In this document: positions 6,192 to 33,556 of the stretch, piece by piece
Numbering within the stretch: position 1 is the first letter of the stretch
Layout of the letters: every line of letters starts with the position of its first letter
NCBI GenBank assembly: GCA_026988295.1
Contig: JALSLM010000220.1
Coordinates: forward strand, 1-35,966
Reading direction: 5' to 3'
DNA: 35,966 bases
Source of the DNA: Thiotrichaceae bacterium
GTDB lineage: Bacteria; Pseudomonadota; Gammaproteobacteria; Thiotrichales; Thiotrichaceae
The notes under the pieces: model-generated
What the model was told of the DNA's origin: nothing
The model's input: only the letters and a program-made list of their open reading frames with translations
The model's database searches: none
Program-made: the position numbers and the translations under genes

Positions 6192-6844
6192 CCTTGGCCT
6201 CCTGATGAGTCTTCTTCATTTAAATATCGATATGTTTTTATTATTGCATGAAGTGATATGCGTGAAACTCCAGTAGTGTTTCTGATATCATTATTAGACT
6301 TGTCTTTTTTGCCTTTTTCCTTTTTTATAGGTTCAAGTTGAATATTGTTGATAGTTACTATTCGTGGCAGGGCAGACAAATCACTAACAAAACCTGCTAA
6401 TTCTTCATAAGTACCTTTAGCTTTTAACTCAATAGGTTTTTCAGCAAAAAATTCTTTTTGTATTTCTGGTTTTGGTTTGAAGAGTTCAATCTCAAGACCA
6501 TTACTTAAACCTTTTTCAGATATATCTAGAATCAACCCAGGGATTTCTGTATCACTTGGTAGCTGATCTTTTAGAGCACCAAAAGATGCTTGCATTTCAG
6601 CTAGTTGAGCTTTGTATGCAGGTAGTTGATTAGCACGAGCTTGTTTCTTCTCATAAATACTGCGCTTTTCTAGCTCCTCAGACTGCACTTGCTTAAGCAT
6701 TTCTGTTTGGTCAACAATTACCAGTTTATATCCTGCAAACAATGTTAAGCCAAAAACAACTGCAATCGCACCAATTTTAATGGGCAGAGAGACGTTTGCG
6801 GGATCATTAAGTAAATTATTTAGTTCTTGTGTATCAATCGCCAT
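6188..6844 (-). CDS. pilO: Type IV pilus inner-membrane protein PilO
   Basis: Periplasmic alignment-complex subunit that pairs with PilN through coiled coils. The ATG at 6844 is chosen because AAGGAG lies 8 bp upstream and the codon follows the pilN stop by one base; an upstream in-frame ATG at 6862 would overlap pilN. This gives 218 aa: a short cytoplasmic N-terminus, a membrane segment at about 22-41, a coiled coil at about 45-95, then the PilO ferredoxin-like domain including LPSDTEIPGLILDISEKG and the YEELAGFVSDLSALPRIVTI block. The C-terminal region carries a lysine-rich loop (KKEKGKKDK). Confidence 0.94.
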   Translation of the reverse strand: MAIDTQELNNLLNDPANVSLPIKIGAIAVVFGLTLFAGYKLVIVDQTEMLKQVQSEELEKRSIYEKKQARANQLPAYKAQLAEMQASFGALKDQLPSDTEIPGLILDISEKGLSNGLEIELFKPKPEIQKEFFAEKPIELKAKGTYEELAGFVSDLSALPRIVTINNIQLEPIKKEKGKKDKSNNDIRNTTGVSRISLHAIIKTYRYLNEEDSSGGQG

Positions 6845-30974: not shown

Positions 30975-32132
30975 TTATTTGTTTTTAATGAGTGTCAGTT
31001 TATCATTTTCAAGACCTAATACCATTTCACCTGAAATAATCTGGGCAAATTCATTATTGACCAGTTCACCGCGCCAATCATCTGATAAGCGATTCTTATG
31101 CGCTTGTACCATTGTCGCAACCTGCTTTCTGGTTGCAATTGCGGCAGCGGTCAATCCATGTTTTTTCGCCTGTAGCTGAATCACTAACATAAGCAAATCA
31201 ATAAGTAGATTTTGATTTGCAGTTGGTTTTTTACTTCTCGGAGGTATTGGCCATTCTGATTCAGGCAAGCTTTGAGCCTTTTTAATTAAAGAAAGCCATT
31301 GTTTATGATGCTTTTTGATTTGCGCAGGATTTATCCCCCGTATATCTCCAATAGCCTCAGGTGAAGAGGGTTGCTGTCGTGCAAAATCAAGCAATATGTC
31401 ATCACTTATTATCCATTTTCTAGGAACATCTGACTTTTCAGCTTTTTCTTCTCGCCAGCTCGCAAACTCCCTTAAAACAGCAAGCTGTTGACTATTTAAT
31501 ACCTGATTACCTCGAACCTTTTTCCAGCGTTCTCTGGGGTTAAGAGCGTAAGTCTTAGGATCAACCGCCCGCGAAAAATCTTTATTAAGCCAGTTGAGGC
31601 GATTTCTTGAAGTAAGTGTTTCAAGCATTTTTGGATATATCTGTGCCAGATAGCGAACATCATCAATAGCGTATTCAAGTTGTATCTTTTTGAGTGGTCT
31701 GCGAGTCCAGTCAGTACGTGATTGAGTTTTGCTAAGCTTCACATTAAGCATTTGCTCAACTAATCGCGCATAACCCATTTGATCACCATAGCCTAAAACT
31801 GATGCCGCTACTTGTGTATCAAATATAGGAGCAGGCATAACTCCTGTGACCTGAGAGAGAATTTCAATATCTTGATGAGCAGCATGAAAGACTTTCGTGA
31901 TGTCAGGATTGCCCAACAGATTATTTAAAGGCGTTAAGTCATCAATCAATAAAGGATCAATACAGGCACGTTTACCTTCCGCCTCTATTTGTATTAAACA
32001 CAGCTTAGCGTAATAAGTTTTCTCGCGTAAAAACTCAGTATCAAGCGCGACCCATGAGCTATTGCTTATTTTTATAGCAAATTCCCTTAGCTTTTCTGTG
32101 GTATCTATATATTCAAACAAACTGACCTCCAT
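30975..32132 (-). CDS. rnd: Ribonuclease D
   Basis: 3'-5' exoribonuclease involved in tRNA 3'-end maturation. The ATG at 32132 gives MEVSLFEYIDTTEKLREF and 385 aa; the frame extends to a TTG at 32141 with no added support. The DEDD exonuclease motifs are ALDTEFLREKTYY (D31, E33), FHAAHQDIEIL and YAIDDVRYL. Two HRDC-type regions follow: one from about RGNQVLNSQQLAVLREFASWREE, then a second C-terminal helical domain. Length is normal (E. coli Rnd 375 aa). Confidence 0.96.
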   Translation of the reverse strand: MEVSLFEYIDTTEKLREFAIKISNSSWVALDTEFLREKTYYAKLCLIQIEAEGKRACIDPLLIDDLTPLNNLLGNPDITKVFHAAHQDIEILSQVTGVMPAPIFDTQVAASVLGYGDQMGYARLVEQMLNVKLSKTQSRTDWTRRPLKKIQLEYAIDDVRYLAQIYPKMLETLTSRNRLNWLNKDFSRAVDPKTYALNPRERWKKVRGNQVLNSQQLAVLREFASWREEKAEKSDVPRKWIISDDILLDFARQQPSSPEAIGDIRGINPAQIKKHHKQWLSLIKKAQSLPESEWPIPPRSKKPTANQNLLIDLLMLVIQLQAKKHGLTAAAIATRKQVATMVQAHKNRLSDDWRGELVNNEFAQIISGEMVLGLENDKLTLIKNK

Positions 32133-32238
32133 GCGGCGCAATAATATAACACGAGCATAAACTACTGTTTTTAAATAAGGAACTGTTTTATTTTACTAAA
32201 GATAAGTATTTAATAATATTACGATATTTTTCCCTTTG

Positions 32239-32244
32239 TTGACA
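32239..32244 (+). promoter_or_regulatory. Candidate -35 box for small RNA
   Basis: Perfect TTGACA. At 17-18 bp spacing the -10 position reads CATTCT or ATTCTT, a weak match, so initiation near 32274-32278 is an inference. Confidence 0.4.
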
Positions 32245-32275
32245 TTAGTTAAAAATCAGCCCATTCTTAATTTGT

Positions 32276-32381
32276 TCACAGAATTCCTCCAACCGCTAGG
32301 AGGAATATGGTCGGCACAAGGAGGATGCTCCCCCATAAACCGACAACAAAAGACCCATTCTAACGAGTGGGTCTTTTTTTA
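32276..32381 (+). ncRNA. Candidate structured small RNA
   Basis: About 105 nt between a TTGACA box and a strong terminator. Predicted elements in order: hairpin ATTCCTCC/GGAGGAAT (32283-32290 with 32299-32306, loop AACCGCTA); a long-range stem GTCGG/CCGAC (32310-32314 with 32340-32344) enclosing GGAG/CTCC with loop GATG; then the terminator. Two AGGAGGA-type sequences resemble GGA motifs bound by CsrA/RsmA, or could mimic ribosome-binding sites. I do not recognise an RNA family. The 5' end is inferred. Confidence 0.5.
32348..32381 (+). terminator. Rho-independent terminator of small RNA
   Basis: AAAAGACCCATTC pairs with GAGTGGGTCTTTT (32348-32360 with 32365-32377) around a TAAC loop, with one G-U pair, followed by a T-run to 32380. 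There is no plus-strand protein gene upstream for it to terminate. Confidence 0.88.
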
Positions 32382-32420: not shown

Positions 32421-32488
32421 CACAAAGAGGGGGGATGGGCAGCATAGATAATAGATACCCATCCCCCCCCTTTTTTTAGACTTTTTTT
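32421..32488. repeat. G-run repeat, inverted pair (hairpin copy A)
   Basis: A left half-unit (shortened A-run, G-run, ATGGGC) at 32421-32440, the spacer GCATAGATAATAGATACCC at 32442-32460, and a right half-unit in complement form ending AGACTTTTTT at about 32488. The same spacer is in the pair at 33485-33556. Confidence 0.82.
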
Positions 32489-32512: not shown

Positions 32513-32540
32513 GTAGAGACGCAATGCATTGCGTCTCTAC
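32513..32540. repeat. Perfect 28-bp palindrome
   Basis: GTAGAGACGCAATG followed by its exact complement CATTGCGTCTCTAC. It starts with GTAG and ends with CTAC like REP arms but has no loop. It is preceded by ACACAGAGAACCGCAGAGG, similar to 20331-20349. It lies just after the 3' end of the LprI-like gene. Confidence 0.85.
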
Positions 32541-32553
32541 TGTGTTTTAAATG

Positions 32554-32925
32554 CTATAACTTGCTAGGTTGGCAACCTGTTGCTTTACATTCTCTAATAC
32601 GGTTTTGAAGCTCGTTTGTTCGCTCTATGGTAAGTTTTGTTGTGCAGCTTAAGCTAACAAAAAACATGCCGTTTCTTCTGAAGCTACAGTTATTATTGCG
32701 TTTTTTTATCCATTGATGCTGAGCTGATCTGAGTTTTCTTCGTCCATTTTTTCTAAGGGCTTTTTTTAGTTTTTTATAAGATGAATTTAAGTCTTTGTCT
32801 GCTTGTTGATAGATTTTATTTAAACAATATAAGCTATCAAAGTCATCTCTAGGGTTATTACAGTTGTCTGCTATTGCTGTGTTTGTTAAAAACATTAAAG
32901 AGATTAAAATTATATATTTGTTCAT
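32554..32925 (-). CDS. LprI-like (DUF1311) secreted protein
   Basis: Small periplasmic protein of 123 aa with a signal peptide at about 1-19 (TAIA/DN). The mature part shows the LprI/DUF1311 pattern: an early cysteine pair (NCNNPRDDFDSLYC), a helix with LNSSYKKLKKALR, and the signature RSAQHQWIKKRNNNC. Further cysteines follow, suggesting disulfides. The family is named after a mycobacterial lysozyme inhibitor, but most members are uncharacterised and inhibition cannot be assumed. AGGAAAA precedes the ATG. It stands alone between repeat blocks. Confidence 0.82.
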   Translation of the reverse strand: MNKYIILISLMFLTNTAIADNCNNPRDDFDSLYCLNKIYQQADKDLNSSYKKLKKALRKNGRRKLRSAQHQWIKKRNNNCSFRRNGMFFVSLSCTTKLTIERTNELQNRIRECKATGCQPSKL

Positions 32926-33280: not shown

Positions 33281-33319
33281 GTGTTATATTTTTGTGTCAC
33301 GAGTAGCACAGCCTCCTAG

Positions 33320-33478
33320 GAGGCTGTCTGAGAACTAGGATTGAAACGAAAATGCCAGAAATATTATAAGGTGGGCTTATCAAAAGAGGCGAATAGTTAT
33401 TCTATTTAACGAATTTGATAAGCTCAGATTATGATGTTTATGGGATTTGCAGTCAATTCTTAGTTCTCAGACAGCCTC
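33320..33478 (+). mobile_element. Complete 159-bp MITE with CTAG duplication
   Basis: Terminal inverted repeats of 18 identical bases, GAGGCTGTCTGAGAACTA at the left and its complement at the right, flanked on both sides by CTAG (33316-33319, 33479-33482). An internal inverted repeat CTTATCAAA (33376) and TTTGATAAG (33415) adds further fold-back. It has no coding capacity. The ends and a YTAR-type four-base duplication are reminiscent of IS5-related elements; the parent IS is not in the window. Confidence 0.85.
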
Positions 33479-33484
33479 CTAGAT

Positions 33485-33556
33485 AAAAAGTGTAAAAAAG
33501 GGGGGGATGGGTTGCATAGATAATAGATACCCACCCCCCCTTTTTTTACATTTTTT
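33485..33556. repeat. G-run repeat, inverted pair (hairpin copy B)
   Basis: Left half-unit AAAAGTGTAAAAAAG plus G-run and ATGGGT, spacer TGCATAGATAATAGAT, right half-unit ACCCA, seven C, seven T, ACATTTTTT. The arms pair over about 27 positions with one bulge and one or two mismatches. It lies about 100 bp before the dipeptidase gene. Confidence 0.85.

Follow-up and report, generated by a model that had tools for sequence, protein, structure and literature searches.

The stretch of DNA analysed here (the window; 35,966 nucleotides) carries an RNA gene, RNA A, which we read as a probable free-standing sponge for a second small RNA, RNA B (probability about 0.68). The retained part of RNA A, AACCGCUAGGAGG, consists of the loop and the 3' arm of its first hairpin and is the exact reverse complement of the linker CCUCCUAGCGGUU of RNA B. 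By computation, RNAs A and B are conserved structured units, and the complementarity between them is restricted to the Thiotrichaceae. RNA B is built like anti-Shine-Dalgarno siblings that block ribosome-binding sites, and RNA A would therefore relieve repression by RNA B. From the sequences we infer transcription, duplex formation, its direction (A antagonizing B), mRNA targets and FNR control.

The window comes from an assembly of 2.77 Mb (89.9% complete), of which it forms one contig, and the RNA A unit occupies the plus strand between rnd and an LprI-like gene (Table 1). Folding of positions 32239-32380 (+) resulted in a minimum free energy of -43 kcal/mol and a z-score of -6.58, and none of 200 shuffles was equally stable; sequence inspection and folding confirmed the TTGACA box, the two hairpins and the terminator of the preliminary description. 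A simple promoter and terminator scan listed neither the promoter of RNA A, because its -10 box is weak, nor its terminator, because the stem, on inspection, extends into the T tail. The minus strand of the unit was also stable on folding (z-score -4.86), and an RNA from this strand was rejected as the promoter and the T tail belong to the plus strand. No conserved reading frame was found in RNA A. A small peptide starting at the AUG after GGAGGAAU was rejected since this start codon is missing from most same-genus relatives, in agreement with the earlier view that the unit is non-coding. It had also been described as unassigned, and the window contained no Rfam match at the gathering score; near RNA A all matches, among them Yfr10, FinP and BTnc231, were below the threshold. 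Promoter-like elements, a terminator and conservation are present at the sequence level, and RNA A is very probably a real small RNA gene.

Table 1. Features of the RNA A locus in the window.
Feature	Position	Strand	Remarks
rnd	30975-32141	-	
LprI-like gene	32554-32925	-	label from the preliminary description
FNR-type palindrome TTGACATTAGTTAA	32239..32252	+	overlaps the -35 box; matches TTGAYNNNNRTCAA at 9/10 positions
-35 box TTGACA	32239..32244	+	TTGAC at equal distance in same-genus copies
-10 box CATTCT	32262..32267	+	17-nt spacer; weak match to TATAAT
RNA A, predicted transcript	32274..32380	+	start estimated from the -10 box
Hairpin 1	32283..32306	+	AUUCCUCC, loop AACCGCUA, GGAGGAAU
AACCGCUAGGAGG	32291..32303	+	exact complement of the RNA B linker; RNA B lies outside the window
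Hairpin 2	32310..32344	+	GUCGG/CCGAC; inner stem around GGAUGCUCCCCC
Intrinsic terminator	32348..32380	+	13-pair stem; tail of seven T

Similarity of rnd placed the window in a Cocleimonas-like genus of the Thiotrichaceae (g1; the genus name is presumptive), and the named relatives in the family sample are Cocleimonas, Leucothrix, Thiothrix and Thiofilum. The preliminary description had called for an alignment of homologues and for compensatory base changes, and both were obtained. RNA A was found by blastn in 6 of the 11 other g1 genomes, and three pairs of the terminator stem are changed on both sides among the g1 copies, while all 13 pairs of this stem are kept in 7/7. All five pairs of the outer stem of hairpin 2 are likewise kept in g1, and there is hardly any variation in hairpin 1 and GGAUGCUCCCCC. 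A covariance model (R1), built from the seven g1 copies, scored all of them at 98 bits or more and gave such strong matches nowhere else in the family; its matches below 38 bits include terminators. The other genera contain a diverged homologue, divergently oriented from rnd, with a recognizable promoter and YCGCUAG in its 5' segment; a clear terminator follows in most, and a less distinct one in g8. In total, RNA A was counted in 37 of the 63 family genomes: 7/12 in g1, 7/9 in g8, 7/9 in g5, 14/16 in Thiothrix (g2), 1/1 in g4 (by eye) and 1/3 in g6 (G027, weak, by eye), with 0/6 in g3 and 0/7 in Leucothrix (g7). Named Thiothrix strains are among the carriers, and genomes of Thiothrix also carry RNA B. 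A pattern search of the class sample matched 50 of 369 genomes, three of them family members; the matches outside the family look like chance, and the plasmids searched gave no match.

A birA-like gene adjoins rnd in three g1 genomes that have neither RNA A nor RNA B. Leucothrix-type genomes (L044, L045, L047 and L048), also without A or B, have a different element upstream of rnd and on the rnd strand, made up of a stretch rich in C (GUGCCCCCC) and a hairpin with a T tail that resembles a terminator; this element had no Rfam match.

RNA A usually adjoins rnd in divergent orientation, a position that could be taken to mean that it is a cis-acting leader or attenuator for a neighbouring gene, an option raised in the preliminary description. 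However, RNA A is directed away from rnd, converges with the LprI-like gene and terminates before any gene, and in G001 and G005 an sseB-like gene (named by eye) replaces rnd as its neighbour. As RNA A lies away from rnd in these two genomes and has no constant downstream gene, it is a free-standing RNA gene, and a leader function is highly improbable.

The resemblance to CsrA/RsmA-titrating RNAs that had been pointed out earlier was not supported either. RNAs of the CsrB/RsmY/RsmZ type are small and structured, and their GGA motifs titrate a regulator. RNA A is likewise a small structured RNA with GGA motifs and a presumed titrator, and AGGAGGA-like sites accompany both hairpins in the window copy. 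In the same-genus copies examined, however, all of the hairpin 1 AGGAGG is engaged in pairs (unpaired probability ∼0). None of 16 copies of RNA A has more than one A-N-GGA, and three of the five Thiothrix copies tested lack any GGA, although the segment AACCGCUAG is retained. Several conserved GGA motifs in hairpin loops, as in CsrB/RsmY/RsmZ-type RNAs, were not found in RNA A; its GGA is paired and not conserved, and the partner that it would titrate is an RNA. We consider a CsrA/RsmA titrator hardly credible.

The second RNA lies at a separate locus, at which short blastn matches to CCAACCGCTAGGAGGA recur in Thiothrix and relatives. The opposite strand of these matches consists of a hairpin, the linker CCUCCUAGCGGUU, a terminator hairpin and a T tail. 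The exact 13-mer CCTCCTAGCGGTT was present in 46/63 family genomes (0/63 for the reversed-pattern control) and in 8/369 genomes of the class sample, three of which are within the family, leaving 5/366 outside. The window's own genome is one of the 46 and has the 13-mer only inside RNA A; if G021 with one mismatch is counted, 46 genomes have the 13-mer outside RNA A. A terminator begins no more than 3 nt after the 13-mer in 52 of the 61 distinct family contexts and in none of the five outside the family; five of the remaining nine family contexts are RNA A itself, and the other four are without assignment. RNA B is a second conserved small-RNA family with an anti-Shine-Dalgarno linker and a predicted transcript. 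The linker shows no variation across six genera and is partly closed in the predicted folds. Within g1, 7 of the 9 pairs of the 5' stem are changed on both sides, 94.6% of the cells in the tested structure are paired, and the covariation score was reached by none of 500 shuffles. The loop AUGGGUAU is complementary to AUACCC ahead of the linker, which makes a pseudoknot possible; as AUGGGUAU is invariant, covariation is uninformative on this point. Eight g1 genomes have RNA B: in six of them it and rnfA (named by eye) are direct divergent neighbours, in G006 it is near rnfA and in G002 elsewhere. Several Thiothrix genomes have two RNA B types. An Rfam scan of 14 RNA B-bearing loci gave no match at the gathering score. 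A model search of the window's own assembly found no RNA B; the contig with rnfA ends 235 bases upstream of this gene, approximately where RNA B starts in relatives, and the missing RNA B is therefore uninformative.

Sequence comparison revealed a conserved complementarity of RNA A to the regulatory seed of another small RNA. The complement to the linker is exact over 13 nt in five of the seven g1 copies and over 11 nt (CCGCUAGGAGG) in the other two, and in the g1 copies with the loop AACCGCUA this loop is open, with an unpaired probability of at least 0.97. Most g8 copies have AAUCGCUAGGAG, in which U replaces C; a G-C pair with RNA B thereby becomes G-U, and pairing is preserved. In Thiothrix, RNA A reads AACCGCUAG(U/A)GAGG, so that a one-base bulge is needed for pairing, and this first B-complementary segment is largely paired within RNA A in the predicted fold. 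A second GCUAGG is present in the next hairpin of 14/14 Thiothrix copies and, by inspection, fits CCUAGCGG of RNA B. The earlier suggestion of an RNA antisense to ribosome-binding sites came close but had the strands inverted: RNA A carries the strand that resembles a ribosome-binding site, and RNA B the antisense strand.

As the same DNA word is found in the A and B units, in opposite orientation relative to transcription, it could act at the level of DNA, as a protein-binding site or part of a terminator, with no RNA pairing between A and B. Against this, the 13-mer always lies within a predicted transcript, either as the linker before the terminator (the 52/61 contexts) or in a hairpin loop, and the g8 change leaves RNA pairing intact but would alter a DNA site. 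A DNA-level element is unlikely.

To assess pairing between A and B, the two RNAs of one genome were cofolded, with pseudoknots ignored, for 14 of the 33 genomes that have both. The real pair was better than all 100 shuffles of RNA A in 10/14 genomes; in the others, 2 (G032), 4 (G015), 18 (G026) and 32 (G019) of the 100 shuffles were as good. In a table compiled by hand, the 63 genomes comprised 33 with A and B, 4 with A only, 13 with B only and 13 with neither (Fisher p 0.0011, a value inflated by kinship); within g1 alone, co-occurrence was not significant (p 0.22). Completeness ranges from 58 to 90% in the four assemblies with A only. Among the g1 genomes with B only, rnd is truncated in G006 and none was found in G010. 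The six g3 genomes have RNA B, and RNA A was searched for in them and not found; a strict A-B pair model must account for these genomes.

According to the sponge reading, the open loop AACCGCUA of RNA A would be the first part to pair with the CCUCCUAGCGGUU linker of RNA B, and from there the duplex would extend into the GGAGG arm of RNA A. By analogy with the alphaR8 siblings, RNA B would cover ribosome-binding sites; RNA A, by mimicking such a site, would remove RNA B and so lift its repression. The roles could also be reversed, with RNA A acting on mRNAs, for instance by way of the C-rich segment GGAUGCUCCCCC in hairpin 2, and RNA B neutralizing it. This segment is invariant in 7/7 same-genus copies, and the 13/63 genomes with B and no A mean that B can do without A, but genomes with A alone exist too (4/63). 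Hairpin 2, however, is not kept outside the genus, and the linker of RNA B, unchanged in all six genera, has an anti-Shine-Dalgarno build. Such a reversal is unlikely, and a sponge function of RNA A is preferred; the invariant C-rich hairpin 2 of g1 may confer an additional activity.

Of 36 RNA A promoters, 25 agree with the FNR consensus, TTGAYNNNNRTCAA, at nine or all ten positions (1.2 expected from dinucleotide shuffles), and 16 agree perfectly (0.05 expected), G027 being excluded from this count. As the -35 box was free to vary in the shuffles and the copies share ancestry, the significance is overstated. The other 11 promoters match at fewer than 9 positions, and in the same genus the box is missing in G003 and G008. 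None of 24 RNA B promoters had a match at 9-10 positions. In g1 and g8 the FNR-type box lies over the -35 box; many Thiothrix copies have it close to the -10 box or the start. A protein bound at these positions would be expected to repress RNA A. The presence of the palindrome over the A promoter in most relatives suggests that a CRP/FNR-family regulator may switch RNA A, most simply through repression, and we give such control about even odds. FnrS is an FNR-controlled small RNA of enterobacteria. RNA A is likewise small and, in most copies, its promoter carries an FNR-type box, but the box of RNA A covers the -35 box, the -10 box or the start, where repression is expected, and RNA A has no sequence match in Rfam. 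In Cocleimonas, RNA B and the rnf electron-transport operon mostly diverge from each other. Tentatively, a two-RNA circuit may extend through the Thiotrichaceae, in which sibling RNAs B are countered by the sponge A under an oxygen- or redox-switched CRP/FNR-type regulator, and these sulfur bacteria would retune translation at the oxic/anoxic boundary.

The closest known case is that of Caulobacter crescentus, in which CrfA was shown to be a sponge for the SisA-D (alphaR8) sibling small RNAs (PMC12559287). A G/A-rich stem loop of CrfA is described there as complementary to the anti-Shine-Dalgarno stretch UUUCCUCCCU of the siblings, which is single-stranded between a hairpin and the terminator; the siblings are encoded at scattered loci, and CrfA is induced by carbon starvation (PMC12559287). 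RNA A resembles the CrfA stem loop and RNA B the siblings, with the alphaR8-like order of hairpin, anti-Shine-Dalgarno stretch and terminator, a likeness of architecture only. No sequence relation was found; no Rfam family matches A or B at the gathering score, a result that speaks only for the families contained in Rfam. The Thiotrichaceae linker CCUCCUAGCGGUU reaches past the anti-Shine-Dalgarno core, the A promoter has an FNR-type box where CrfA has induction by carbon starvation, and the roles of A and B are predictions from sequence. To work like CrfA/SisA does not make A and B members of that family. In Bacillus subtilis, RosA is a sponge for RoxS and FsrA, and its G-rich regions are described as pairing with C-rich regulatory regions of other small RNAs; RosA differs from RNA A in being longer, in having several G-rich regions and in belonging to another phylum than the host of RNA A (PMC8216469).

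The functional kind, a sponge for siblings, is already known; both RNA families are without a match in Rfam 15. A search of the open-access literature returned no description of A or B, which does not imply absence in print, and a search with the motif letters returned only a plant paper. If the sponge reading is true, control of anti-Shine-Dalgarno siblings by a sponge, shown in an alphaproteobacterium, would also operate in a gammaproteobacterial family with unrelated sequences, which would point to repeated invention or great age of such control. Two RNA families would then have to be annotated in Thiothrix and Cocleimonas, with a sharply testable pairing. As A and B are both found in Thiothrix, including named strains that bear A, this pairing can be tested without an uncultured organism.

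mRNAs with a site for RNA B were sought in the examined loci only, and no target was established. In one Thiothrix gene (L324, G082) the 13-mer lies 8 nt ahead of the AUG; this gene was not counted as a target because one of the five matches outside the family (L327) looks similar. The gene that follows RNA A in G008 and G003 has the 10-nt B site CGCTAGGAGG within its early codons (L007 about 1987, +; L008 about 2014, -). The leader at L241 (G062:C229, about 6612-6674) contains an FNR-like TTGACTTGTATCAA together with AATCGCTAGGAGG a short distance ahead of potential start codons; it might be an mRNA target of RNA B.

Several other repeats were observed near the RNA A locus. Just downstream of RNA A, at 32513-32540 of the window, a short T run follows the perfect palindrome GTAGAGACGCAATGCATTGCGTCTCTAC. 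An inverted repeat at about 33311-33485, with CTAGGAGGCTGTCTGAGAACTA.. and ..TTAGTTCTCAGACAGCCTCCTAG ∼120 bases apart, is like a miniature transposable element. Two near-identical G-rich/C-rich inverted repeats with T-run ends, at about 32425-32477 and 33496-33549, read GGGGGATGGG..GCATAGATAATAGATACCCA..CCCCCC and are perhaps a repeated terminator or a mobile element; a similar piece is present at the end of contig G000:C216 (L348).
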